A DNA stretch of 64,000 nucleotides from Desulfatibacillum alkenivorans DSM 16219. Its GTDB lineage: Bacteria > Desulfobacterota > Desulfobacteria > Desulfobacterales > Desulfatibacillaceae. The DNA is taken from positions 186,001 through 250,000 of the forward strand of contig NZ_FQZU01000002.1 of NCBI RefSeq assembly GCF_900142135.1, in the 5' to 3' direction. Numbering within the stretch: position 1 is the stretch's first letter; each line of letters opens with the position of its first letter. Made by a program: the position numbers and the translations under genes. Positions 3,436-49,567 of this stretch are shown here, one piece after another. The notes under the pieces were generated by a model. It saw only the letters and a list, made by a program, of their open reading frames with translations, was not told where the DNA came from and did not search any database.

Positions 3436-3903
3436 TTATTTCAGCTTGGAGGCCGCTTCCTGAAACACCTTGTTGATTTCCAGGTTCATGTCGCCTGCTT
3501 TACGCAGCAAAACCGCCACGTCGCCCATGCCTTCCCCGTCCGCCCTGGCCGCCCAGGTTTCGTAGGTTTGGGCGTGGTCCCGGTTGTGGGCGACCCAATG
3601 GTCCAGCAGCTTGGCCAGCTTTTCCCCCATGGTCATGGTGGATACCGTTTCATGGGTGTGGCCGTGATCCCCTGCGCCGTGGTCGTGATCATGGGCGTGG
3701 GAGTGCTTGTGCTCGTGTTCGTGCTCTTTGGGCGCCTGGCCCTCGTGGGCGTGCCCGTGATCCTGTCCGTCCCCGTGACTGTGGGGATGGCTGTGGGCAT
3801 GGGTATGCTCATGGTCATGTCCGTGATCATGGCAGTGCCCGTGATCGTGTCCGTGATCGTGTCCGTGATCATGGGCGTGGTCGTCGTTATGATGATGGCT
3901 CAT
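3436..3903 (-). CDS. Histidine-rich metal-binding protein
   Basis: A 155-residue protein in two parts. The first 85 or so residues hold about 35 histidines in alternating HD/HG/HE steps, the classic composition of nickel, zinc or cobalt storage or chaperone stretches (compare HypB, SlyD and the ZIP/CDF transporter loops). Residues about 90-155 form a compact helical domain (LDHWVAHNRDH, then an amphipathic helix ending VFQEAASKLK). No signal peptide or membrane segment is visible, so it is probably cytoplasmic. It stands alone, with family-A repeat downstream and trxA divergent upstream. A metal-buffer role is inferred from composition; nickel would fit the CO dehydrogenase at 27972, but that link is speculative. 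Confidence 0.75.
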   Translation of the reverse strand: MSHHHNDDHAHDHGHDHGHDHGHCHDHGHDHEHTHAHSHPHSHGDGQDHGHAHEGQAPKEHEHEHKHSHAHDHDHGAGDHGHTHETVSTMTMGEKLAKLLDHWVAHNRDHAQTYETWAARADGEGMGDVAVLLRKAGDMNLEINKVFQEAASKLK

Positions 3904-23063: not shown

Positions 23064-23912
23064 TTAACTTCTCTTGCCGACAAACCGTGCGCCGGAAACC
23101 ACGGCCAGATAGGTCAGGCCGGCAATGACGATGATCGTGGGTCCGCTGGACAGGCTGAAATGATAGCTCACGCCAAGGCCGGTCCAGGTGAATGCCAGGC
23201 AAAAGACTACGGCCATGACCATGGTCTGCCACAAGCGTTTGGCGAACTGGCTGGCCACGGCGGCCGGGATGGTCAAAAGCGCAATCACCATGACAATGCC
23301 CACCACCCGCACCAGAAGCACAACGGTCAGGGCGGTCAGGCACAGCAAGAGCATGTAAACCGCGCCCACGGGAATGCCCCTGAGGGCGGAGAACTCCTCG
23401 TCAAAGCACACGGCCAGGAGCCGGTTGTAGAACCACAGGGACAAGCCCACCACCAGGACGTTCAAACCCAGAACCATCCATACGTCCTGGGTGGAGATGA
23501 GAAGGATGTCCCCGAAAAGATAGCTGGAGATGTCAAAATATCCCGGCGTAACGTCCACAAACAGCAGGCCCGAGGCCATGCCCACGGCCCATAAGGCGCC
23601 GATAACCGTATCCTCCCGCTGTTTGGCGTACAAGGAGACCGCGCCGATGATGACCGCGGCCAGCAAAGCCGCTCCCACCGCCCCGTACATGGGGTCGAAC
23701 CACTGCAAGCCCATCTTGTTTTGGAGATACAGGCCCAGGCCGATGCCTCCGAACACGCAATGGGAAATAGCGCCGGCCAGATAGCTGATCCTTCGGGTGA
23801 CCACATAGGCGCCCATGATGCCGAAAGGCACGCTGGCCAGTCCGCCTACGATGAAGGCGAGTCGCAAAAAGGCGTTGTCCGGGTTCATCAAGGCCTGGGT
23901 GAACTCAATCAT
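23064..23912 (-). CDS. znuB: Zinc/manganese-type ABC transporter permease
   Basis: A 282-residue membrane permease of the ZnuB/MntB (ABC-3) family with eight to nine hydrophobic helices. Characteristic segments are AYVVTRRISYLAGAISHCVFGGIGLG, the YLFGDILLI turn and VVLLVRVVGIVMVIALLTIPAA. ATG at 23912 (GGGAGG before it) is chosen over the upstream GTG. It overlaps the ATPase gene by 8 bases. No gene for the periplasmic binding protein ZnuA is present, so the metal is not certain from context. Confidence 0.88.
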   Translation of the reverse strand: MIEFTQALMNPDNAFLRLAFIVGGLASVPFGIMGAYVVTRRISYLAGAISHCVFGGIGLGLYLQNKMGLQWFDPMYGAVGAALLAAVIIGAVSLYAKQREDTVIGALWAVGMASGLLFVDVTPGYFDISSYLFGDILLISTQDVWMVLGLNVLVVGLSLWFYNRLLAVCFDEEFSALRGIPVGAVYMLLLCLTALTVVLLVRVVGIVMVIALLTIPAAVASQFAKRLWQTMVMAVVFCLAFTWTGLGVSYHFSLSSGPTIIVIAGLTYLAVVSGARFVGKRS

Positions 23913-24663
23913 GGCAATGCCCTCCCTCACTGCACCGGTGATCGTGCCTGACCAGGCGGCAGTCTCCGCCGTAGATTTCCTTGATCAGGGTGCCGTTCAA
24001 TTCGCTGGTGGGATGCACCACCAGCTCCCGGCTGACGCAGATCACGCTTTTCACCACCTGGGAGACGAAACCCAGATCGTGGGATACCAGGAGGATGGTC
24101 ATTTTTTCGTTCAATTTTTGAAGCATGTCAAACAGGCTTTGCTGCACTTCCGGGTCCACGTTGGAGGTGGGCTCGTCCAGCAGGAGCAGCTCAGGCTTGC
24201 ACGCCAAAGCCCGGGCGATGAGCACCCGCTGCTTTTGGCCGCCGGAAAGGGCGCTGTACATATGGTGGGCCATTGGGCTTAATTGAACCTCCTCCAGGCA
24301 TTCCATGGCCGCATCCCTGTCTTTTTTGGAATGCCATAGCATGGCGCCTTTGCGCATACGCCCCATGAGCACCACGTCCATGACGGTCACGGGAAATTGG
24401 GGGTCCAGGTGGGAGTATTGAGGCATGTAGCCTATTTTCAGCCGGGCCTTTTCAGGCGTCGTACCCAACATGGTAATGGAGCCGGCGTCCGGTTTCAGCA
24501 GTCCCAGCATGAGTTTCAGCAAGGTGGTTTTTCCGCCTCCGTTAGGCCCCACAATGCTGGCGAACTCGCCTTTCTCCACCTGCAGGCGCACGTTGTTCAA
24601 TACCGGTTGGCGGGTATATCCAAATGTTACGCCATCTAACTCGATGTCGTAGTCGATGCTCAT
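23905..24663 (-). CDS. znuC: Zinc/manganese-type ABC transporter ATP-binding protein
   Basis: A 252-residue ABC ATPase. It has Walker A GPNGGGKTT, the signature LSGGQKQRVLIARAL, Walker B LLLLDEPTSNVDPE and the switch His in LLVSHDLGFV. The PQYSHLDPQFPVTVMDVVLMGRM stretch after the Q-loop is typical of the ZnuC/MntA metal subfamily. The C-terminus has a His/Cys-containing tail (RHDHRCSEGGHCHD) that could bind metal. It pairs with the overlapping permease and follows the HExxH mini-protein gene by one base. Confidence 0.92.
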   Translation of the reverse strand: MSIDYDIELDGVTFGYTRQPVLNNVRLQVEKGEFASIVGPNGGGKTTLLKLMLGLLKPDAGSITMLGTTPEKARLKIGYMPQYSHLDPQFPVTVMDVVLMGRMRKGAMLWHSKKDRDAAMECLEEVQLSPMAHHMYSALSGGQKQRVLIARALACKPELLLLDEPTSNVDPEVQQSLFDMLQKLNEKMTILLVSHDLGFVSQVVKSVICVSRELVVHPTSELNGTLIKEIYGGDCRLVRHDHRCSEGGHCHD

Positions 24664-32274: not shown

Positions 32275-32466
32275 CTATTCGTCCTCCCAGGTAATGCAGT
32301 CCGACGGGCAGTACTTGATGGCCTCGTCCACGCATTCTTCGGGATAGGAATCCAGGTCTTTCACCTGGATCATGCCGGCGTTATTTCTAAAAAACACCTC
32401 GGGGCATACTTCGATGCAGCCTTCGCAATCCACGCACGTACTGTTATCCACGACCGGAACTTTCAT
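32275..32466 (-). CDS. Single-cluster ferredoxin
   Basis: A 63-residue ferredoxin. The motif CVDCEGCIEVCP gives four cysteines and a distal CP pair (YCPSDCI) gives the last ligand, the layout of one-cluster [4Fe-4S] or [3Fe-4S] ferredoxins such as Desulfovibrio Fd. The ATG overlaps the final A of the flavodiiron gene stop (TAATG), and a longer reading upstream is rejected. It may deliver electrons to the flavodiiron protein or take them from pyruvate oxidation. Confidence 0.9.
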   Translation of the reverse strand: MKVPVVDNSTCVDCEGCIEVCPEVFFRNNAGMIQVKDLDSYPEECVDEAIKYCPSDCITWEDE

Positions 32467-33659
32467 TATTCCACCTTTTTCAACAATGTCTGGCCGATCT
32501 GTTCGCCTAATGCGTAGCACGCCTGCAGGCTGTCGCCGTCCGGGATGTACTGGACGCGCAGGGGATCGTTGGGCAGTTCAAAGCCGATGGCTTCCAACTC
32601 CGCGTTCACCTGCTTGGCGGCCTCGCCGCTCCAGCCGTAGGATCCGAAGGCGCCCCCGACCTTGTTCTTGGGTTTGAGGCCCTTCATGTAGGTCAAAAAG
32701 TCCGCCACGGTCGGGAACATGTTGTTGTTGATGGTGGGGGAGCCCACCACCACGGCGCCTGCGTCCATGACTTCAGTCATGATCTCGCTGCGATGGCAGG
32801 AGCGAATATGCATGACCCGGGCTTCGATGCCAAGATCCTTGAAAGCCTCCACCATTGCGTCCGCCATTTTTTCCGTGCTGTGCCACATGGTGTCGTACAC
32901 CACCACGGCTTTCTTTTTGGGCGTCTGCTTGGCCCACTCGGCGTATGCCTGGATGATTTTGCCGGGATCCTTGCGCCACAAGATGCCGTGGTCCGGGCAG
33001 ATCATGTCTATTTCCAGGCCCATTTCCGTCACCTGGTCCACCAGCTTGGTCACCAGTTGGGAGAAAGGCAGCAGGATGTTGGCGTAATATTTGGCGGCGT
33101 GCGGCATGATCATTTCGCCCACTTCGTCGTCAAAGCGCTCCAGGCTGGCGTAATGCTGGCCGAATGCGTCGCTGGAGAACAGAATCTTGTCCGAGGGCAG
33201 ATAGGTGAACATGCTGTCCGGCCAGTGGAGCATCCGGGTTTCCAAAAAGGACAGGGTGCGTTTGCCCAGAGACAACTCGTCTCCGCTTTTCACGGGCTGG
33301 AAGTTCCACTCCTGATGAAAATGCGCCTTTAAATTCTTCATGCCGTTATTGGAGCAATAAAGGGGCGTGTCCTTGCTTAGGCGATGCATGACCTTGGGAA
33401 GGCCGCCGGAGTGGTCCATTTCAGTATGATTGGATATGACGATGTCAATTTTGGAGGGATCCACAACCTGACTGATCCGGCTGAACATGTCGTTGGTGAA
33501 TTCTTCCTTGACCGCATCGATCAGGGTGATCTTTTCGTCAACGATCAAAAAGGCGTTGTACGTGGTTCCCTGGTACGTGGAATATCCATGGAAATCCCGT
33601 ATGTTCCAGTCAATGGCTCCGACCCAATAAATATCTTTTGCTATTTCTAAGGGCTTCAT
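32466..33659 (-). CDS. fprA: Flavodiiron protein (rubredoxin:oxygen oxidoreductase, FprA family)
   Basis: A 397-residue two-domain enzyme that reduces O2 to water and/or NO to N2O. The N-terminal metallo-beta-lactamase di-iron domain has H78-x-E80-x-D82-H83 (NHTEMDHSGG), a further His in HWPDSMFTYL, the bridging Asp in SSDAFGQHY and the last His in CPDHGILWR. The C-terminal flavodoxin domain has VYDTMWHSTEKMA and FGSYGWSGEA. No extra rubredoxin or flavin-reductase domain is fused; rubredoxin is encoded 80 bases upstream, so this is the Roo type. Neighbours agree with oxygen defence. Confidence 0.94.
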   Translation of the reverse strand: MKPLEIAKDIYWVGAIDWNIRDFHGYSTYQGTTYNAFLIVDEKITLIDAVKEEFTNDMFSRISQVVDPSKIDIVISNHTEMDHSGGLPKVMHRLSKDTPLYCSNNGMKNLKAHFHQEWNFQPVKSGDELSLGKRTLSFLETRMLHWPDSMFTYLPSDKILFSSDAFGQHYASLERFDDEVGEMIMPHAAKYYANILLPFSQLVTKLVDQVTEMGLEIDMICPDHGILWRKDPGKIIQAYAEWAKQTPKKKAVVVYDTMWHSTEKMADAMVEAFKDLGIEARVMHIRSCHRSEIMTEVMDAGAVVVGSPTINNNMFPTVADFLTYMKGLKPKNKVGGAFGSYGWSGEAAKQVNAELEAIGFELPNDPLRVQYIPDGDSLQACYALGEQIGQTLLKKVE

Positions 33660-33739: not shown

Positions 33740-33898
33740 TTACTCTTTTTCAAAATCGTCTTTGGATGCGCCGCAGACCGGGCATTCCCAATCATCGGGC
33801 ACATCTTCCCAAGCCGTGCCCGCGGCTACGCCGTTGTCCGGATCCCCGTCCGCAGGATCGTAAACATAACCGCAAACCGTACATACCCATCTATCCAT
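33740..33898 (-). CDS. Rubredoxin
   Basis: A 52-residue rubredoxin, the electron donor to the flavodiiron oxygen reductase encoded next. It has [16 protein letters not shown] and [14 protein letters not shown], giving the Fe(Cys)4 site with the two CxxCG loops at residues 6-9 and 39-42. It begins MDRWV and ends KE. A good ribosome site (AAGGAG) lies upstream. The gene is smaller than usual length cut-offs. It follows the triheme cytochrome gene by 51 bases. Confidence 0.95.
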
Positions 33899-33949: not shown

Positions 33950-34309
33950 CTAATTTTTCTGGTGGCAGCCCCTGCACGAGGTGGGGCCGGTTTTTTCGCC
34001 CGCCTTTTTCATTTCTTTATGACAGCCCGTGCATTGGTTCATGACCGCTTTGGATTTAAGCGAGCCGTCCTCCTTTTTCTTGTCAATTACGCCCTTCTCC
34101 TGGGGAAACATGCCGTGGCATGCGTCGCATTTTCCCAGGACGGTCTGATGCTGGCCGTGGGGAAAGGGGACGTCCCCGGTCTTTCCTCCGTGAAGCGTCA
34201 TTTGCGCGGCGCCCGGGTTTTGCGAGACAGCCGGGCCGGCCGTAATCATTAGGCCTGTTGCAGCCAATATCGCACATAGGGCGCCCAAAGCAAACGTTCT
34301 GATTTTCAT
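33950..34309 (-). CDS. Periplasmic triheme c-type cytochrome (cytochrome c7/c3-like)
   Basis: A 119-residue exported cytochrome with a Sec signal peptide (LGALCAILAATGLMITAGPAVSQ) and three CxxCH heme sites (CDACH, CTGCH, CRGCH), the class III c7 count rather than the four of c3. Distal His ligands appear in FPHGQHQ. It is periplasmic and could be electron donor or acceptor for the octaheme enzyme encoded two genes upstream, 21 bases after the small zinc protein. It was judged cytochrome c3-family by heme spacing and size. Confidence 0.88.
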   Translation of the reverse strand: MKIRTFALGALCAILAATGLMITAGPAVSQNPGAAQMTLHGGKTGDVPFPHGQHQTVLGKCDACHGMFPQEKGVIDKKKEDGSLKSKAVMNQCTGCHKEMKKAGEKTGPTSCRGCHQKN

Positions 34310-34330: not shown

Positions 34331-34510
34331 TTATTCGGTTTCGTGAATCACGCAGCCTTCATGATCCTTACCGCACTTGTCACAGTTAACCCTAACTTTG
34401 CCGTCGGTGTCACCATATTTTTTTCTAAACTCGTCCGGCGTCATGTTGCAAATAAGGCCGCACCCGCATTCCGGGCATTCCGATTTGATCTGATATCTTT
34501 CTTTGGCCAT
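34331..34510 (-). CDS. Small four- to six-cysteine zinc-binding-type protein
   Basis: A 59-residue protein not in any family I know, MAKERYQIKSECPECGCGL at the start and VNCDKCGKDHEGCVIHETE at the end. The cysteine spacing CxxCxC ... C (middle ICN) ... CxxC ... C looks like a zinc ribbon or small iron-sulfur/rubredoxin-like site. AGGGAGG lies 6 bases upstream of the ATG. It fits exactly between the octaheme cytochrome (11 bases upstream) and triheme cytochrome genes (21 bases downstream), so it is part of the transcript. It could be a chaperone or a redox adaptor. Confidence 0.72.
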   Translation of the reverse strand: MAKERYQIKSECPECGCGLICNMTPDEFRKKYGDTDGKVRVNCDKCGKDHEGCVIHETE

Positions 34511-34521
34511 TTTAAACCTCC

Positions 34522-36021
34522 CTACTGAGACTTTTTCTGCGTTTCAAGCCATTGGGCCATGTCCGCCAGATTTTTGGACATGTCCCAGCGTCCGCCTGCA
34601 AAGACCCCATAATCAGCCCCGGCCATGGCGGAGGCCTTTCTGGTGGAGTTGGCGTAGAACAGCCACTGGAGCATCCATTTGCGTTCAATGGATTCGTCAA
34701 AGAGATTGTCCGCCTGAGCGTACTCTTTGCTCCAGGCTTCCTCCATGAGGTCCGTAGCCGCCTTGACCATCGCGTCCGAGGTTTTGAGGGTGTTTTCCAT
34801 GCGCTCCCAATGGCCTTCCGACCACTGGCGGCTGTGACAGCCTGCACACACCCCAAGCATAGCGTTCTTTCTTTCCTCCCGGGCGGCTTCGTCAATCAGG
34901 TAATCCTTGGCCCATTCCCCGTCCAGGCTGGTCGCCATGGGCTGCCCTTCCTTGTTGCGGATGACGGTGGTATCCGCTTTTTTAGGCTGGGGATGGGAAT
35001 AGATCACCCCGAAAAGCCGCCAGGGCAGCCGGTCGTTCATCTGATGCGTGGACTCGGCCAGCACGTTTCCAAACTCGTCCTCCACGCCGCTGGCATGGCA
35101 GACCGCGCAAGTCGGGGCGTTAAAATCGCGTCCCGCGACCCAGGGCTTTTGGGTGTAGTCCCAATCTTTGTCCTGACTCGCCTGGATGTTGCCGTGCTTG
35201 CTCACCGAATAAATGCTGTACGCCGGGGCGTCGGGCCCCTTGTGGCATTGGGAGCATGTGTACGGCTTGCGCGCCGTGGCCATGTCAAACCCGTGGCGGG
35301 GGTGGCAGGCCGTGCACGCGCCCGCGCTCATATCCGGGTTGATCCTGCCCACGCCCTGGCTGGGCCAGCCTTCCAAAACCGGGAACTCCAGATCCCCGAA
35401 ATCCGTCTCGCGCACCTGGGTCCCGTTAACCTTCACCTCGGTCCCATGGCAGGCCAGGCAGGATTCCGCGTTGGTAAGATCGTCCGCCGCCGTAGTCACG
35501 GGCTTGCCTTCCTTGATGACCGGCGGGCCGTTGATGGCGTTCACCATGGTCATGTATAAGGGGTTGTCCACCAGAATCCTGTGAGCGTTCCCCATCTTAT
35601 TCCGGCTGTACTCGTCGGTCTGCCGGGCGTGGCAGACGGCGCAGTCCTTGGGCGACACCACGATGTGAACCTGAAAACCCTCATGGTCGAACGTGTCCTT
35701 GTGGGTGTCCGGGTTCAAGGTGTGGCACTCCGCGCATCCCACAGCGACCTCGGCCAGCTCGCCTTCCGGCGCCTGGGAGGAAACCTTCCGGGACTTCTCC
35801 GGGGCGCCGGCGGCCATGGTAAAGGACGTCTTGGCGTGGAGGCTGTTTCTCCAATCGGCCACGATTCCCGGGGTGGCCTCCTCATGGCACATCAGGCAGC
35901 CTTCCGTGGCCTCGCTCAAGGGAGGCGCTTGCGCCAAAGCGCCGGAATTAAAGACAAGCATTCCAGCGGCCAAAACCGCCGGAATCAGGCCCTTTTTCCA
36001 CATGTCAATGCGTCGGGCCAT
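34522..36021 (-). CDS. Octaheme hydroxylamine-oxidoreductase-like cytochrome c
   Basis: A 499-residue periplasmic multiheme protein with an N-terminal signal peptide (GLIPAVLAAGMLVFNSGALAQA) and eight CxxCH motifs: CLMCH, CAECH, CAVCH, CLACH, CTACH, CSQCH, CAVCH and CAGCH. The heme count and HAO-type spacing mark it as an octaheme HAO-family member, like the reductive epsilon-Hao group that turns nitrite or hydroxylamine to ammonia. I did not find the cross-linking tyrosine needed for hydroxylamine oxidation with certainty. The gene begins 3 bases after the rubredoxin-like gene. A reductive nitrite/hydroxylamine or O2/peroxide detoxification role is inferred from the operon. Confidence 0.88.
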   Translation of the reverse strand: MARRIDMWKKGLIPAVLAAGMLVFNSGALAQAPPLSEATEGCLMCHEEATPGIVADWRNSLHAKTSFTMAAGAPEKSRKVSSQAPEGELAEVAVGCAECHTLNPDTHKDTFDHEGFQVHIVVSPKDCAVCHARQTDEYSRNKMGNAHRILVDNPLYMTMVNAINGPPVIKEGKPVTTAADDLTNAESCLACHGTEVKVNGTQVRETDFGDLEFPVLEGWPSQGVGRINPDMSAGACTACHPRHGFDMATARKPYTCSQCHKGPDAPAYSIYSVSKHGNIQASQDKDWDYTQKPWVAGRDFNAPTCAVCHASGVEDEFGNVLAESTHQMNDRLPWRLFGVIYSHPQPKKADTTVIRNKEGQPMATSLDGEWAKDYLIDEAAREERKNAMLGVCAGCHSRQWSEGHWERMENTLKTSDAMVKAATDLMEEAWSKEYAQADNLFDESIERKWMLQWLFYANSTRKASAMAGADYGVFAGGRWDMSKNLADMAQWLETQKKSQ

Positions 36022-36024
36022 GGC

Positions 36025-36180
36025 CTATTTAATCCGGTCGTCCGTCTGAGTATCCTGGCAATCCGGCGTATAGCAGGACGCGTCCAAAAATTCACATTTT
36101 TGCTTGCAGGACGGGCACTCGTTGGGCGGTGCGTCCTGTTCCATTTGATAACCGCAGTTGGAGCATCTCCAAGTAGCCAT
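36025..36180 (-). CDS. Small rubredoxin-like protein with C-terminal cysteine cluster
   Basis: A 51-residue protein, MATWRCSNCGY then NECPSCKQKCEFLDASCYTPDCQ. Two rubredoxin-type knuckles (CSNCG and CPSC) are separated by only about 12 residues, as in rubrerythrin-type and desulforedoxin-like domains, followed by CYTPDC adding two more cysteines. A good ribosome site (AAGGAGG) precedes it. It is read 3 bases before the octaheme gene. It may be an electron carrier or metal chaperone; the last Cys pair is unlike a standard rubredoxin. Confidence 0.75.
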   Translation of the reverse strand: MATWRCSNCGYQMEQDAPPNECPSCKQKCEFLDASCYTPDCQDTQTDDRIK

Positions 36181-36263: not shown

Positions 36264-36638
36264 TTAGGCTTTCCAGAGCCCGTGGATGTTACAGTATTCC
36301 CGCACGGTAATGTCTCCGTCCGGCACGCAGAAGGAGGCTTCGGGCGCTTGGCCGGGGGACAGGAACTCGCGATAGGCCTTGCCGTCCACGATGACCTCGA
36401 TCCATTCGATGTAGTGCTTGTCTTCCATGGGATGGGCCACGGAGCCGACCGTCACCTTGACGCCGTCGGCGGTCTTTTCCACCACAGGCACATGCTTTTC
36501 CTTGGCGGCGTCCACAGTGTTTTCCGTAAAGAGCTTCATGGGAGCGCCGCAGCATACCAGTTCGCCGGCGCCGCCGGTCAACACTTCCACGATGTTTCCG
36601 CATGCTTCACATTTGTAGATCTGAAGTCTTTCAGCCAT
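36264..36638 (-). CDS. dfx: Desulfoferrodoxin (superoxide reductase)
   Basis: A 124-residue two-iron superoxide reductase of sulfate reducers, reducing superoxide to H2O2 without producing O2. The N-terminal desulforedoxin domain has CEACGN and CCGAPM for the FeCys4 centre I; centre II ligands are present as [14 protein letters not shown] and EYCNIHGLW (Cys and His of the Fe(His)4Cys site), with the Glu near KHVPVVEK. Length and motifs are standard. It lies between rubrerythrin (which removes the peroxide formed) and the rubredoxin-like gene. Confidence 0.96.
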
Positions 36639-36739: not shown

Positions 36740-37315
36740 TTACCAGTTTTCGCCCAGAAGCTCGAAGTGGGCCTGGGGATGGGCGCATGCAGGACATACT
36801 GTCGGGGCTTCGTTTCCTTCATGCAGGTATCCGCAGTTGCGGCAACGCCAAGTGACGGCGGCGTCACGCTTGAAAACCCTGCCGGCCTCGATGTTGGCGG
36901 CCAGGTCCAGGTATCTTTTTTCATGCTGCTTTTCAGCCACGGCGATGGCCATCATCACGTCCGCGACTTCATTGAACCCTTCTTCCCGAGCGATATTGGC
37001 GTATTCGGGATACATGGAAGTATGCTCATGGTTTTCGCCCGCGGCGGCCTCCTTCAGGTTCTCCAGGGTGGAGCCGATGACGCCCGCCGGAAAAGAACCC
37101 GTGATCTCCACTTCGCCCCCTTCCAAAAACTTGAACAGGCGCTTGGCGTGCTCTTTCTCCTGGGCGGCGGTTTCCTCGAAAACAGCGGAAATCTGCACGT
37201 AACCTTCCTTTTTAGCCTTGCTGGCGAAATAGGTGTAACGGTTCCTTGCCTGGGATTCGCCGGAAAATGCGGTCAAAATATTTTTTTCGGTTTTAGTGCC
37301 TTTTAATGACGCCAT
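36740..37315 (-). CDS. rbr: Rubrerythrin
   Basis: A 191-residue NADH-linked peroxide reductase. An N-terminal four-helix di-iron domain has GESQARNRY, EETAAQEKEHAKRL and VAEKQHEKRYLDL, and a C-terminal rubredoxin domain has WRCRNCGYLHEG and VCPACAHPQ. Both iron sites are complete. It is immediately behind perR (67 bases), which makes it an expected PerR target, and before dfx. Confidence 0.96.
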   Translation of the reverse strand: MASLKGTKTEKNILTAFSGESQARNRYTYFASKAKKEGYVQISAVFEETAAQEKEHAKRLFKFLEGGEVEITGSFPAGVIGSTLENLKEAAAGENHEHTSMYPEYANIAREEGFNEVADVMMAIAVAEKQHEKRYLDLAANIEAGRVFKRDAAVTWRCRNCGYLHEGNEAPTVCPACAHPQAHFELLGENW

Positions 37316-37382: not shown

Positions 37383-37790
37383 CTATCTGCACTTCTCGCA
37401 AATGCCCTTAAACTCCAAACGAAAGCCGGAAACGGCGAAGCCGTTAATCGCCTGGCTTCCAAGATCAAGCTCCACGCCTGCATCCACTGGGACGTCGCGC
37501 ACCGCGCCGCAACGCACGCAACGCGCATGGTGGTGCATGTCCGTGTTCCAGTCATACCGCCTTTGATTCCCGGAAAGCTCCAGCCGGGCCAGAATGCCGG
37601 CGTCCGCCATCTTTTCCAAGTTGCGGTATACGGTGGACAGGCTGATCCTTGGCTGCTTTTTCCGCACCAGTTCATAAACCTCATCCGCCGTAAGATGCTG
37701 CCTGGCCTTTTGGACTTCCTCCAGGATGCCTTTGCGCTGATTGGTCATGCGCAGGGGCTCGGGGCGATATGTGTGATTGCTTGCGTTCAT
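37383..37790 (-). CDS. perR: Fur-family regulator, PerR-like
   Basis: A 135-residue Fur-superfamily repressor. The winged helix contains MTNQRKGILEEV, LTADEVYELVRKK and ISLSTVYRNLEKM, and the dimer domain has the His cluster MHHHARC, structural-zinc pairs CVRCG and CEKC, and a terminal R. PerR-type role is inferred from the target genes, which are peroxide, superoxide and oxygen enzymes in the same direction; metal selectivity cannot be read. A palindromic box lies about 10 bases before the start codon, so it probably represses itself and the downstream genes. Confidence 0.88.
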   Translation of the reverse strand: MNASNHTYRPEPLRMTNQRKGILEEVQKARQHLTADEVYELVRKKQPRISLSTVYRNLEKMADAGILARLELSGNQRRYDWNTDMHHHARCVRCGAVRDVPVDAGVELDLGSQAINGFAVSGFRLEFKGICEKCR

Positions 37791-43132: not shown

Positions 43133-43882
43133 CTATGCGGGAATGGGAAATTCCGCGTCCATCAGGTCCAGGCCGCAGCTCATTGTACTGATCCAGTCTA
43201 TGAATTTGTTGGACATTTCCCGATTCCCGAACACGGCGCCGTGCTGGGGCGCAATGATTTCAATATCCAGCTTGCGCACCGTGTTCACCCACATCTTCAA
43301 AACTTTGGAGGTGGGGATATAGCGCTTGTGGAAACCTTCCATGTATTGAATATGATTGTCGAAATCCTCGACAATAGCGTAGTCCTGGCCTAAGGATGCG
43401 CCCAGGTCGCCCGAGTACAGGATCTTTGCCACCGGATCGTAAACCTGAAAGTTGCCCGAAGAATGGAGAAAGTGTGCGGGAATCAGGGGAAACCGCTCGC
43501 CGGCCACTTCAATGACCATGCCTTCGTCCGGGATGGGCTTGATTCTGTCGATAACCAGTTCGTCCACGCCGAAATGGGTGATGAACCGGGTCCAGATGGT
43601 GGAGAGATACGCTGTCGCGTCCGTCACCATAAGCCATCCGTTGGCGGCGGCGATGATGTCAGGATCCTGGTGCGAGAAGAAGATGTGCTTTAAGTTGTTG
43701 ATGGACAGAATGCCGGCGATCTCGGGAAAAAACTTGGAGTAGATTTTGTGCCCGCCGGGGTCCAGGACCAGCCCTTCGCCCTTATGGACCACCAGGTGCT
43801 GGTTGGCCTGAACCATAGCCCCCGAACCCAAATCATTGTACATCACGTTTACGTGATCAGCGCTTTCAAATAACTTTATCAT
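43133..43882 (-). CDS. MBL-fold di-iron protein, ODP-like oxygen sensor
   Basis: A 249-residue metallo-beta-lactamase-fold protein without flavodoxin domain. The metal motif is H71-Q-D73-P-D75 (FFSHQDPDI) rather than HxExDH, with further His in PAHFLHSSG, Asp in SGDLGAS and His in PQHGAVFGN. This pattern matches the flavodiiron-derived ODP group, an O2-binding di-iron protein linked to chemotaxis in Treponema. It lies 17 bases before the kinase and 28 bases behind the roadblock gene, so it probably provides the oxygen input for the kinase module. No signal peptide is visible. Confidence 0.82.
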   Translation of the reverse strand: MIKLFESADHVNVMYNDLGSGAMVQANQHLVVHKGEGLVLDPGGHKIYSKFFPEIAGILSINNLKHIFFSHQDPDIIAAANGWLMVTDATAYLSTIWTRFITHFGVDELVIDRIKPIPDEGMVIEVAGERFPLIPAHFLHSSGNFQVYDPVAKILYSGDLGASLGQDYAIVEDFDNHIQYMEGFHKRYIPTSKVLKMWVNTVRKLDIEIIAPQHGAVFGNREMSNKFIDWISTMSCGLDLMDAEFPIPA

Positions 43883-44399: not shown

Positions 44400-45428
44400 C
44401 TAATACGCTTCCTCGTGCGACAGATCTTCTTCCGTAACCTTGCCGGAGAAAAGTTTATACGCCCATGTCTGATAAGCCAGGACAATGGGAATGAAAATGA
44501 CGACCACCACCAGCATGATTTTAAGGGTCAGAGGGCTGGAAGAGGCGTTGTGCGCCGTCAGGCTGAGGTCGGCGTTGATGCTTGAAGGGTACAAACGGGG
44601 AAACAACCCGGCAACGCCAAAAAAGGTCACGCCGACGATGGACAGGCAGGAGCAGCCCCAGGCTTTAAACCAGGCCTCCTTGCCCATGAATACTTTAATG
44701 CCGAGCAACCCGGCCACGGCTAATACCAAAATAAGAAACAGAACCGGGTTGGCAAGATAATTGTCGTACAAATCCGTAAAAACCGCGCTGGCGATCAGGC
44801 ACACCACAATGGCGCCCGCCATGACCGGCCACAACCTCTTGCCCGTTTGAATGGCCCGGGCCTGCAAATCGCCTTCGGTCTTGATGGCCAGCCACAAGGA
44901 GCCGTGGACGATGAACATAAGCAGAAAGACCACGCCGCCAATGAGCCCGTAAGGATTGAGCAGCGTAATCAGGGTGCCCTGGAATATGCCGTTTTCATCA
45001 AAGGGAATGCCCTGGAAGATGTTGGCGAAAGCCACGCCGAACAAAAGCGCAGGGGCGAAATTGCCGATGAAAATGGTCGTGTCCCAGACCCTTTTCCACT
45101 TGGGGCTGTCCACCTTGCTGCGGAATTCAAAAGACACGCCCCGCAGGATCAGGGCGAATAAAATCAGCATCAAAGGCGTGTACAGGGTGGAGAACATGGT
45201 GGCGTACACAGCGGGAAATGCGGCGAATGTGACGCCGCCCGCAGTGATCAGCCAGACCTCGTTCCCGTCCCACAAAGGCCCCACCGAGTTGATCATGATC
45301 CGCTTTTCCTCCTCGGTCTTGCCCAGGAAGGGGTACATCGTCCCCATGCCGAAAACGAATCCGTCCGTCATGAAAAAAATCGCCCATAACAGGCCCCATA
45401 AGAAAAACCATATATTCTGCAAAACCAT
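44400..45428 (-). CDS. cydB: Cytochrome bd oxidase subunit II
   Basis: A 342-residue integral membrane subunit with nine predicted helices. Typical CydB parts are WGLLWAIFFMTDGFVFGMGT, GPLWDGNEVWLITAGGVTFAAFPAVYAT near residue 52-78, and SLTAHNASSSPLTLKIML near the C-terminus. With CydA it reduces O2 to water with quinol at high affinity. It is encoded 66 bases after cydA. In anaerobes this oxidase is an oxygen-protection enzyme. Confidence 0.94.
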   Translation of the reverse strand: MVLQNIWFFLWGLLWAIFFMTDGFVFGMGTMYPFLGKTEEEKRIMINSVGPLWDGNEVWLITAGGVTFAAFPAVYATMFSTLYTPLMLILFALILRGVSFEFRSKVDSPKWKRVWDTTIFIGNFAPALLFGVAFANIFQGIPFDENGIFQGTLITLLNPYGLIGGVVFLLMFIVHGSLWLAIKTEGDLQARAIQTGKRLWPVMAGAIVVCLIASAVFTDLYDNYLANPVLFLILVLAVAGLLGIKVFMGKEAWFKAWGCSCLSIVGVTFFGVAGLFPRLYPSSINADLSLTAHNASSSPLTLKIMLVVVVIFIPIVLAYQTWAYKLFSGKVTEEDLSHEEAY

Positions 45429-45494: not shown

Positions 45495-46805
45495 TTATGC
45501 CTCGGTTTCTTCAGGCCCTTTTTTGGCGGCGGTGTATATCAGGTAAAATCCCACCGCGCCCAACAGGCCGTAAATCAGGATAAAGGCCGTCAGGGAAATG
45601 GCGCCCTGGGATTGCAGAATGGGCGACACCGCGTCCGACGTTTTCATGACTCCGTAAACAATCCATGGCTGCCTTCCCACTTCCGTCAAAACCCAGCCCA
45701 ACTCGTTGGCGATGTACGGCAGGGGGATGGCGAACATCATGATTTTCAAATACAGGGGGTACTCCTGGAGCTTGTCCCGCTTCCACAACCCGAACAGCGT
45801 CAGGAAGATGAACAGCGTGCCCAGCCCCACCATGCCTTTAAACGCCATGGAGACGATGAGGACCGGCGGGCGCTCGTCCTTGGGGAAGTCCTTGAGGCCC
45901 TGAACCTCGGCGTCAAAGCTCCCGTGGCCCAGGAGGCTCAGCAAGCCGGGGATCGGCATGATCTCAATGACATTGCGCTCGTTTTCCTCGTCAGGCCATG
46001 CAAACATATAGACGGGCGCATGCGTTTGGGTTTCCCACAGGGATTCCATGGCGGCCAGCTTGGCGGGCTGCTTCTGCGTCACGTCCTTGCCGTGGATATC
46101 GCCTTCAACGGCCACGAAGATCGTAAAGATGACGCCCATGACCAGGGCCATGCGGAAGGACTTGGTGAAAAAATCGTCATCCGTCTTTTTAAGCAGATGA
46201 TAGGCGCTGACGCCCATGACGAAAAACGCAGAAAGCACGTAAGCGCCGGCCAGGGTGTGCAGGATCATCAAAATGGCGAATTCGTTGGTGACAACCGCGA
46301 AGAAGTCCGTCAACTCGGCCCGGCCGTTGCGGATGACGTATCCCACGGGATGCTGCATCCAGGAATTGGCGATGAGAATCCACACCGCCGAAAGAGACGA
46401 AGCCCCTGCCACCAGCCACATGACCGTGGCGTGGGCCTTGGCCGACAGCTTCTTCCAACCGAAAATCCACACGCCCAACAGCGTGGACTCCAGGAAAAAA
46501 GCCGCCGTGGCTTCGATGGCGAGGATGGATCCGAAAATGTCGCCCACGTAGGCCGAGTACCGGGACCAGTTGGTGCCGAACTGAAACTCCAGGGTGATGC
46601 CCGTCACCACTCCAAGGGCGAAATTGATCAGGAACATCTTTCCCCAGAACTTGGTCATCCTGAGATACACCTTGTCTCCGGTGCGCACATACTTTGTCTC
46701 CATGATGGCGACCAGGATGGAAAGACCCAAGGTGAGGGGAACAAAAAGGTAGTGGAACATGGTTGCGGCTGCAAATTGCAGGCGAGACAGCATCAAAACG
46801 TCCAT
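45495..46805 (-). CDS. cydA: Cytochrome bd oxidase subunit I
   Basis: A 436-residue heme-bearing subunit with nine helices. It begins MDVLMLSRLQFAAATMFHYLFVPLTLG, containing the conserved heme b595 His. The GRQPW motif (TEVGRQPWIVYG) and FQFGTNWSRYSAYVGDIFGSILAIEA are present, as are the quinol-loop WP residues. The Q-loop is short, which is the common form of non-E. coli bd oxidases. Preceded by the Rrf2 regulator gene in the same direction (76 bases). Confidence 0.95.
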   Translation of the reverse strand: MDVLMLSRLQFAAATMFHYLFVPLTLGLSILVAIMETKYVRTGDKVYLRMTKFWGKMFLINFALGVVTGITLEFQFGTNWSRYSAYVGDIFGSILAIEATAAFFLESTLLGVWIFGWKKLSAKAHATVMWLVAGASSLSAVWILIANSWMQHPVGYVIRNGRAELTDFFAVVTNEFAILMILHTLAGAYVLSAFFVMGVSAYHLLKKTDDDFFTKSFRMALVMGVIFTIFVAVEGDIHGKDVTQKQPAKLAAMESLWETQTHAPVYMFAWPDEENERNVIEIMPIPGLLSLLGHGSFDAEVQGLKDFPKDERPPVLIVSMAFKGMVGLGTLFIFLTLFGLWKRDKLQEYPLYLKIMMFAIPLPYIANELGWVLTEVGRQPWIVYGVMKTSDAVSPILQSQGAISLTAFILIYGLLGAVGFYLIYTAAKKGPEETEA

Positions 46806-47671: not shown

Positions 47672-47709
47672 TTATCAACATACTAGTCACCCTATTAAGG
47701 AGGCGTACC

Positions 47710-48180
47710 ATGGCTTACGAATTTAGTGCAGACGAAATATTCGCAATGGCGGAAGAAATTGAAAAGAACGGCGCCAAGTTTTACTCCGACGCCGCTGCAA
47801 AAGTGGATGATGCCGACAACAAGCAATTTCTGGAGGAACTGGCGGCCATGGAAAGAAACCACGAAAAGGTTTTCGCCATGCTGCGTTCCGACCTTGCTGA
47901 GGAACTCAAGAACTCCAGCACATTTGATCCTGAAGGCGAAACCGGCCAGTACCTGAAGTCTTTGGCCGATATGCGGGTGTTCTTTAAAAAGGAAATGGAT
48001 TTTTCCTCGATGCAGTCCATCATCAAAGACGCCATAGTGGCTGAAAAAGACTCCATCGTCTTTTACCTTGGTATGAAAGAGCTGGTGGACAGCAAGGACG
48101 GCAAAGATAAAATCGACGTGATTATCAAGGAAGAGATGACCCACGTCACCGTTCTGACGAATCGGCTGGCCAAAGCCTGA
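47710..48180 (+). CDS. Ferritin-like/rubrerythrin-type di-iron protein without rubredoxin domain
   Basis: A 156-residue four-helix protein: FSADEIFAMAEEIEKNGAKFYSDAA, ELAAMERNHEKVFAML, DAIVAEKDSIVFYLGM and IIKEEMTHVTVLTNRL. The Glu/His residues of a di-iron site (E..., ERNHE, EKDS, EEMTH) are complete. It looks like the rubrerythrin-related ferritin-like group, probably for peroxide or iron handling. ATG at 47710 has AAGGAGG upstream; longer readings are rejected. It is a single gene with its own promoter and lies next to the oxygen island. Confidence 0.82.
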   Translation: MAYEFSADEIFAMAEEIEKNGAKFYSDAAAKVDDADNKQFLEELAAMERNHEKVFAMLRSDLAEELKNSSTFDPEGETGQYLKSLADMRVFFKKEMDFSSMQSIIKDAIVAEKDSIVFYLGMKELVDSKDGKDKIDVIIKEEMTHVTVLTNRLAKA

Positions 48181-48364: not shown

Positions 48365-49567
48365 ATGACTCATTATCTGATTGTAGGCAATGGCGTGGCC
48401 GGAACCACGGCCGCCGAAACCATTCGCAAGGCCGACTCCCAAGGCCGCATAACCATCCTGACCGAAGAGGATCTGCCTTATTACTCACGGATTCGGCTGC
48501 CTGAATACATCGCCGGAGAGACGGATGAGGACGATCTGGTTATCAAGGCCCCGGATTGGTACAAGGAGCGCGCCATAGACATCCGCCTGAAGGCGGAAGT
48601 GGCCGGAATAGATCCTGAGTCTAAAACCGCGACCTTGAAAAACGGCGAGAAGATTTCCTATGACAAGGTGCTGCTGGCCACGGGAAGCCGTTCTTTCGTC
48701 CCGCCCATTAAGGGATCGGACCTGCCCGGAGTGTTTACGCTCCGTAATGTCCAGGACGCCCGGGCCATCAAGGATTACGCCGGAAAATGCGCCAATGCGG
48801 TTGTCATAGGCGGCGGCGTTCTGGGCCTGGAAGCGGGGAACGCCTTGATCAAACTGGGGAAAAAAGTCCGGGTGGTGGAGTTCATGAGCCGCCTGCTGCC
48901 CCGCCAGACGGACTGGGAATGCTCCAAGCGGCTCCAGGCTATCCTGGAAGGCATGGGCTTCAGCTTCAGCCTGGACTCCAAAACCAGCGCCATTGAGGGA
49001 AACGGCCGGGTGGAAAAAGTCCTTTTGGAAGGCGGCGAAAGCCTTGATGCGGACATGGTCATCATCTCGGCCGGCGTCCGGCCGTGCAAGGACCTGGCCG
49101 AGCCGGTGGATGTGGCCTGCGACAAGGCCGTCAAGGTGGACGAGCATATGCTCACCTCCATGGCGGACGTCTACGCAGCCGGAGACGTGATAGAATTTGA
49201 GGGCCGCCCCTACGGCATCTGGCCCGCTGCTTCCGAACAGGGCCGCATAGCCGGAAACAACATGGCCGGCAAGGCCCAGGAATACGGGGGCACGCCCATG
49301 GCCAACACCCTCAAGGTGGCGGGCGTGGAACTGGCGGCCGCCGGCGAACTGGACCCGGACGGAAAACTGGACTCCGCAGTGTATGAAACCAAAGACGTGT
49401 ACCGGAAAATCGTCTTTGACAACGGCCGTATTGTGGGGTGCGTCATGCTGGGCGACAAGACCGGCTTTTTCCAGGTGACCAAGCTCATCGGCAAGGACCG
49501 TGATTTTTCCCAATTCAAGGAGCAGCTCCAAAGTCCGGATTTCGACTTTAAACAATTGACCGCGTAG
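48365..49567 (+). CDS. NADH:rubredoxin oxidoreductase-like FAD enzyme
   Basis: A 400-residue pyridine-nucleotide disulfide-type flavoprotein. It has FAD-binding VGNGVAGTTAAETIRK at the N-terminus, ATGSR, NAD(P)H-binding VIGGGVLGLEAGNALIKLGKKVRVVE at about residues 142-167, and the late FAD motif VYAAGDVIEF. A C-terminal extension of about 60-80 residues fits the NROR/nitrite-reductase NirB N-terminal group. It could supply electrons to rubredoxin for the flavodiiron and rubrerythrin enzymes. ATG at 48365 follows GGTGGAG. It lies directly behind a terminator, so expression may be attenuated. Confidence 0.82.
   Translation: MTHYLIVGNGVAGTTAAETIRKADSQGRITILTEEDLPYYSRIRLPEYIAGETDEDDLVIKAPDWYKERAIDIRLKAEVAGIDPESKTATLKNGEKISYDKVLLATGSRSFVPPIKGSDLPGVFTLRNVQDARAIKDYAGKCANAVVIGGGVLGLEAGNALIKLGKKVRVVEFMSRLLPRQTDWECSKRLQAILEGMGFSFSLDSKTSAIEGNGRVEKVLLEGGESLDADMVIISAGVRPCKDLAEPVDVACDKAVKVDEHMLTSMADVYAAGDVIEFEGRPYGIWPAASEQGRIAGNNMAGKAQEYGGTPMANTLKVAGVELAAAGELDPDGKLDSAVYETKDVYRKIVFDNGRIVGCVMLGDKTGFFQVTKLIGKDRDFSQFKEQLQSPDFDFKQLTA

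Follow-up and report, generated by a model that had tools for sequence, protein, structure and literature searches.

Two small cysteine-rich proteins, here designated s51 and s59, are encoded to either side of a gene for an octaheme cytochrome of the HAO family (OCC) in Desulfatibacillum alkenivorans DSM 16219 (contig NZ_FQZU01000002.1, positions 186,001 to 250,000; this whole stretch of 64,000 nucleotides is the window in what follows). With a probability that we put at about 0.7, s51 and s59 are accessory members of the Desulfobacterota gene run for defence against oxygen and reactive oxygen species (ROS), rather than servants of the octaheme alone, and would take part, that is, in a stress response that spans two compartments. 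A preliminary description had singled out these two open reading frames (ORFs), and they exist as it said, i.e., on the minus strand, of 59 and 51 residues, flanking a 499-residue gene with eight CxxCH motifs, and with good ribosome sites (aaggagg for s51, gggagg for s59). It had also put both genes below common gene-calling cut-offs; genes of 156–180 nt exceed the minimum length that common gene callers apply by default.

The order of the genes is PerR, rubrerythrin (Rbr), desulfoferrodoxin (Dfx), s51, OCC, s59, triheme c7-type cytochrome (c7), rubredoxin (Rd), flavodiiron protein (FDP), and ferredoxin, with intergenic gaps of 3 nt between s51 and OCC, of 11 nt between OCC and s59, and of 21 nt between s59 and c7. 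Genes for superoxide reductase, rubrerythrin, rubredoxin, and flavodiiron protein thus all are found in a single run, one which, as judged from sequence, looks like a putative operon for defence against oxygen, superoxide, peroxide, and perhaps nitric oxide (NO). Passages of PMC11451228 describe the flavodiiron protein as a rubredoxin:oxygen and NO reductase, and Dfx as working with rubredoxin. A promoter scan returned four sites versus 3.1 expected, one of them (10/12) immediately ahead of PerR; the scan is not counted here as evidence.

The superoxide reductase/rubrerythrin gene run is also the better host context for s51 and s59 elsewhere. Among 95 relatives searched, 66 have a homologue of s51 with 50–72% identity (at E 9e-15 or lower; the automatic tally of 89 of 96 relatives at E 0.001 includes rubrerythrins), and the family is present in 129 of 395 genomes of the phylum (E 1e-9), at least two of which (G630, G758) are rubrerythrins at threshold. 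The s51 loci whose genes were named are the best 80 of 409 confirmed relatives, with flanks of up to 9 kb that often are ended by contigs. Among these 80, Dfx is found in 61, Rd in 56, FDP in 50, and Rbr in 46, with a third small family, op70, in 53 and c7 in 41. An OCC orthologue (at least 200 bits) is found in none of the 80. A different HAO-family octaheme is seen downstream of ferredoxin in five of them (Table 1). A plasmid search using s51 gave no match.

By its sequence, s51 is a stand-alone rubrerythrin-type rubredoxin domain, matching PF21349 (RUBY_RBDX) over residues 4–30 at 42.7 bits (cut-off 26.5). It has no match to PF00301 (rubredoxin) up to E 0.1, and its 28.1 bits with the RCKP-type rubredoxin-like model NF045720 are below the cut-off of 45. 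The statement that neither small protein is a plain rubredoxin thus needs amending with regard to s51, which has a rubredoxin-type domain (PF21349), though not PF00301. A profile search of the PDB with s51 matched rubrerythrin (1ryt/1b71) and a disulfide reductase (4tpu), and Foldseek with the s51 model returned no match at E under 0.1. Four cysteines are of metal type (C6, C9, C22, C25) and three are found in a tail (C29, C36, C41), with all seven retained in 81 of the 82 distinct rows of alignments A1 and A4. The single exception (from L162) has lost C36 and C41 together, and C29 is missing from L359, a distant ‘double-ribbon’ form of s51. The best reading is that s51 is a predicted cytosolic Fe(Cys)4 electron carrier. 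A form of 81–99 residues, in which the s51 domain is preceded by an additional ribbon with a CxxC, is seen at L279:4429-4674, at L280:8675-8920, and at L355-L359.

For s59, the pattern of codon change is that of a protein-coding gene. Versus the congener G001, 27 of 58 codons are identical, 22 differ synonymously, and 9 non-synonymously, and versus each of G242 and G174, both from another family, these numbers are 26, 22, and 10; identity is 84–86% in G001 and about 83% in G242 and G174. Both s51 and s59 thus are conserved in related genomes, and chance ORFs are ruled out by this conservation and the codon pattern. Neither are the two one family, as profile comparison gives only 2.3%. The motif of s59 is CPxCxC-X25-CxxC (C12, C15, C17, C43, C46), on which basis it would be a member of an unnamed zinc-ribbon-like family; s59 and its relatives match no Pfam or NCBIfam family at curated cut-offs. 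The metal or redox function that had been suggested for the pair is supported for s51, via its rubredoxin-domain match, and for s59 at the level of motif only. The s59 model (predicted local distance difference test, pLDDT, 81) has four strands and one helix, and VIA-align of that model gives a best Z of 4.2, with mixed ribbons and fingers, the Hsp33 zinc domain 1xjh being outside the 50 rows shown, which excludes nothing.

Relatives of s59 are found in 39 genomes of a 96-genome search, mostly as a 68-residue ‘long form’ ending CPEWDKEC, and a rubrerythrin-like ferritin (PF02915) follows the s59-family gene in 11 of 36 loci. The s59 of the window belongs instead to a ‘short form’ (alignment A6), which at 77 bits or more is present in 14 of 389 genomes of the class, the next matches being at 54 bits or less, and which is found in 46 of the 395 phylum genomes (at least 76 bits). 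With this short form s51 tends to co-occur, i.e., in 40 of those 46 genomes versus 89 of the 349 others, with a one-sided Fisher P of 5e-16, a statistic that ignores relatedness. Of these 40, 11 have the short form downstream of s51 on the same strand at a distance of 374 bp or less, which in seven is 34 bp or less; G499 has an extra small gene between the two, and in the window it is OCC that separates them. In the class set, the order Dfx-s59-s51 is seen in G380 and in G173, the latter with a ferritin between.

OCC has eight CxxCH motifs, matches PF13447 at 69.2 bits (cut-off 21.9), and matches HAO structures, all of which place it in the HAO family; its closest solved relative is 4qo5 (E 5.8e-105). 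HAO proper, i.e., hydroxylamine oxidase, is marked by a P460 haem with a tyrosine cross-link. Orthologues of OCC (E 1e-100) are present in 117 of the 389 class genomes, and 87 loci, the window excluded, were mapped (86 of these 117 copies, mostly the best scoring, plus the fragment L274), with flanks often ended by contig ends. OCC is linked to defence genes in seven of the 87, i.e., in G001 and in six genomes of family f42. In f42, G288 has the order Fld, s51 long form, OCC, TlpA-like, Prx, s59, and G274 and G321 have OCC, TlpA-like, Prx, s59. Outside of the class, f77 (G430, G465) has Dfx, Rd, OCC, s59, ISF, and Fld, with s59 directly after OCC, while from f81, G435 has OCC, Rd, HEAT, s51, s59, and G527 has OCC, Rd, TlpA-like, Prx, with s51 and s59 about 2.3 kb further. 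Linkage of OCC with Dfx, Prx, TlpA-like, Rd, s51, or s59 is found altogether in f1, f42, f77, f81, and f131. In f87, a second HAO-type octaheme lies 0.2–3.4 kb from s51 in seven of the eight genomes that have it (six divergent), a count drawn from the nine f87 genomes among 11 examined. The bracketing of OCC by s51 and s59 thus is partly conserved. Conservation beside HAO genes, which the preliminary description had raised, is borne out by the recurrences in f77, f42, f81, and f87, and is not borne out by the best 80 of 409 s51 loci nor by most of the mapped OCC loci.

The linked octahemes also cluster by sequence. In an OCC tree of 98 rows, the 12 linked rows need five changes versus a shuffled mean of 11.5, with none of 500 shuffles as low, and a split of moderate support (87) sets off 26 rows that include all 12. 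That tree is a quick search, with support solely from the Shimodaira–Hasegawa-like approximate likelihood ratio test (SH-aLRT), and the ‘linked’ label was assigned by the analyst; it covers L287, with s59 about 11 kb off on the same contig, and L394, with s51 about 6 kb off, and as L274, though linked, is too short, that locus has no row.

As for compartments, a simple N-terminal scan gives hydropathy maxima of −0.21 for s51 and of 0.39 for s59 versus 1.90 for OCC and 2.29 for c7. Since s51 and s59 are without a signal-like start and OCC has one, it is unlikely, on these predictions, that they are direct partners or haem chaperones of OCC. Instead, s51 may carry single electrons on Fe(Cys)4 within the cytosol to desulfoferrodoxin, rubrerythrin, or flavodiiron protein, with its three-cysteine tail as a possible thiol/disulfide or second metal site. 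In turn, s59 would be a cytosolic zinc-thiolate protein, and would probably serve as a redox-responsive accessory (a switch, scaffold, or chaperone), not in electron transfer. On the periplasmic side, OCC along with triheme c7 would act as the reducing arm, with peroxide, NO, hydroxylamine, or nitrite as substrate. These proteins, that is, may all act in one stress response across two compartments, though without forming a complex.

A number of observations weigh against this reading. OCC is unlinked in 80 of the 87 mapped loci, albeit with weak Dfx matches at L110, L297, and L304, an NROR-like gene at L286, and a PerR-like gene at L305 among these 80. OCC is present in 11 of 28 genomes that were selected because they have s51 or s59 (or, in a few cases, because of kinship), a proportion that hence cannot be read as a frequency, and in five of the 11 it is unlinked (G490, G653, G743, G568, G708), while in G725 it is beside a HEAT-repeat-like gene only. 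For 28 of the 40 genomes that have s51 together with the s59 short form, the two genes lie far apart or on different contigs. The hydropathy scan is crude, with Dfx, a protein that is cytosolic by family, reaching 1.51 in its first 60 residues. The s51 model has a pLDDT of 70.5 overall and of about 50–65 in the tail. The zinc ribbon of s59, lastly, rests on its motif, with no Pfam match, and Foldseek with the s59 model found nothing at E under 0.1.

What, then, of other explanations? Were s51 and s59 dedicated assembly or redox partners of OCC, as the preliminary description had suggested, then their bracketing of OCC in the window would be expected, as too would be the adjacency of OCC and s59 in the two f77 genomes, the company of s51 and/or s59 that OCC keeps in f42 and f81, and the second octaheme near s51 in f87. 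We nonetheless consider this to be highly unlikely, given that s51 and s59 lack the signal-like start that OCC has (by the crude scan), the lack of OCC orthologues from the best 80 of 409 s51 loci, the predominance of unlinked loci among those mapped for OCC, and the persistence of both small families in many genomes where no octaheme is linked to them. At the other extreme, the insertion of OCC and s59 into the gene run may be an accident of this genus, which would render the bracketing meaningless. Consistent with such insertion, op70, flavodoxin, and c7 occupy that place in many relatives, and most mapped OCC orthologues are located elsewhere. Related combinations are nevertheless seen again in f42 as well as in two families from outside of the class, f77 and f81, and linked OCCs cluster on their tree. 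The pure-accident view of the pairing thus is dropped because of these f42, f77, and f81 loci, and chance insertion, already weakened by such recurrences, is improbable.

With regard to what the small proteins do, one tentative possibility, though still well short of an even bet, is that s59 is a stand-alone Hsp33-type zinc redox switch, with peroxide-formed disulfides unmasking a chaperone or regulatory surface. Its CxC-X25-CxxC thiolates would hold zinc when reduced, a peroxide-defence context fits, and 1xjh recurs as a weak match (E 0.47, 0.2, and 0.2). The long-form profile (A3) versus an alignment of the Hsp33 C terminus gives an hhalign probability of 59–64, and a score of 26.6, whereas the highest of 200 column shuffles with the cysteine columns left in place is 21.1, with control profiles from s51 and op70 at probabilities of 4 and 2. 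The comparison was picked after the motif had been seen, however, and only the second half aligns. The X25 spacing is shorter than the X27-32 which we take to be that of Hsp33. The short form, which is that of the window, reaches a probability of only 10, with 6 of 100 shuffles scoring as high; with its alignment (A6), ribosomal L24 outscores 1xjh. Nor does PF01430 (Hsp33) match s59 up to E 0.1, and 1xjh is not listed among the 50 VIA rows. A search for Hsp33 gave no match in the host genome or in eight other genomes of its family. The likeness to Hsp33 is treated here as a lead. Slightly more doubtful is that s51 is a thiol-redox adaptor in which rubredoxin iron feeds a disulfide of tail cysteines, as in a miniature ferredoxin:disulfide reductase. 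The near-invariance of those three cysteines and the joint loss of C36 and C41 are in its favor, as is 4tpu, a ferredoxin-dependent disulfide reductase, which was matched by sequence (E 0.0019) and was fourth by fold (E 0.39). That co-loss is nevertheless a single one, with L359 instead lacking C29, the 4tpu match is restricted to residues 139–167 of that protein, and the tail is poorly modelled. A more elaborate possibility is a redox-stress module that spans two compartments and is conserved in Desulfobacterota, in which an exported HAO-type octaheme peroxide/NO reductase would be co-inherited with two cytosolic proteins, s51 as a one-electron/two-thiol converter that links a rubredoxin iron with its cysteine tail, and s59 as a stand-alone Hsp33-like zinc redox switch, the switch controlling the response or holding its enzymes; this we view as quite a long shot. 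Accessory membership of s51 and s59 in the oxygen/ROS-defence run is what we favor instead.

Table 1. Features of the oxygen/ROS-defence gene run of the window, with octahemes from other loci in the last row.
Feature	Position	Strand	Basis
s51	36025..36180	-	51 aa; PF21349 domain and ribosome site aaggagg
s59	34331..34510	-	59 aa; family alignments A3, A5, A6; codon pattern; ribosome site gggagg
OCC, HAO-family octaheme cytochrome	34522..36021	-	499 aa; 8 CxxCH; PF13447; signal-like N terminus
Triheme c7-type cytochrome	33950..34309	-	3 CxxCH; PF02085/PF14522; signal-like N terminus (hydropathy)
Desulfoferrodoxin (Dfx, two-iron superoxide reductase)	36264..36638	-	TIGR00320 213 bits, over cut-off
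Rubrerythrin (Rbr)	36740..37315	-	NF045767 306.7 bits, over cut-off
Fur/PerR-type regulator	37383..37790	-	PF01475; best NCBIfam matches are PerR models, below cut-offs
Rubredoxin (Rd)	33740..33898	-	PF00301 88.6 bits; NF045768 over cut-off
Flavodiiron protein (FDP, rubredoxin:oxygen / NO reductase type)	32466..33659	-	PF19583 and PF00258; NCBIfam flavorubredoxin models below cut-offs
Single-cluster ferredoxin	32275..32520	-	PF13370
Different HAO-family octaheme, s51 loci	L167:15147, L197:14755, L200:8567, L211:12904, L215:13109		8 CxxCH; 6 in one contig-cut copy

The op70 family is itself tiny and cysteine-rich (HCPGF..CKCPxCG..EIFSDEFD..C..CG..IDFxQC), as seen at L124:5245-5427 and in 30 further loci, and has no Pfam family. 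Of 40 s51 loci, 31 have it, in most cases in the interval from s51 to c7. In the genome of the window it is elsewhere (G000:C32:201197-201367), near PerR-like and rubredoxin-like genes. The idea that s59 is a displaced op70 was rejected, with profile comparison giving only 14% and with op70 present elsewhere in the same genome.

What, judging from sequence, is a photolyase-like gene is within 5 kb of OCC in 17 of the 87 mapped loci, and others have SRPBCC-like and epimerase-like genes; the setting is perhaps one of light or oxygen stress. In three f60 genomes, a one-iron superoxide reductase-like gene is upstream of OCC (L110:8182-8574, L304:3733-4131, L297:4029-4688), that of L110, the only one of the three checked, matching PF01880 at 119 bits. 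Within the window, the oxygen island is extended by a ferritin-like protein (47695-48180; PF02915) and by what presumably are CydA/CydB-like genes (45495-46805 and 44400-45428), an MBL-fold protein (43133-43882), and an FAD reductase-like gene (about 48365-49567). Metal handling is possible for a very histidine-rich ORF of 155 residues (3436-3903) as well as for what we presume to be an ABC transporter-like pair (23064-24663).

Comparison with known systems can be made gene by gene. With the rubredoxin-like domain of rubrerythrin (PF21349), s51 shares CxxCGY...CPxC, but unlike rubrerythrin it is without a ferritin-like domain, and its conserved tail, C-x6-C-x4-C, in most cases ends with DxRI. 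With rubredoxin (PF00301) it shares four cysteines in CxxC pairs, a length of about 50 residues, and the same gene runs, although that model does not match it and a true rubredoxin is separately present at 33740-33898. With the zinc domain of Hsp33 (1xjh), s59 shares the order CxC...CxxC, and the long form shares similarity of profile over its second half; unlike Hsp33, s59 is a stand-alone protein of 59 residues, with shorter spacing and no PF01430 match. OCC is matched over most of its length by its HAO-family relative 4qo5 (‘Hypothetical multiheme protein’), which we take to be the Ignicoccus hospitalis octaheme of Parey 2016, and from which OCC differs in being bacterial and within an oxygen-defence locus. 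A passage of PMC4429474 calls the in vivo function of Ignicoccus multiheme cytochromes speculative. Among the papers listed by searches of the open-access literature, none was found on s51 or s59, or on an octaheme within such a gene run.

Accounts of oxygen survival by strict anaerobes usually center on superoxide reductase, rubrerythrin, and rubredoxin, along with flavodiiron proteins. To these the locus adds small families that either are without a Pfam match (s59, op70) or have a domain name only (s51), and HAO-type octahemes, which are considered mainly in the context of nitrogen chemistry, here would be tied to oxidative stress in several lineages. Oxygen-defence operons include those of the Desulfovibrio rbo-rub-roo type and clostridial NROR-FprA2-Dfx. 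Titles related to such operons are found in the reference list of PMC3116461. With these operons the run in the window shares superoxide reductase, rubredoxin, flavodiiron protein, and rubrerythrin, and it differs from them in adding s51, s59, triheme c7, and the octaheme.

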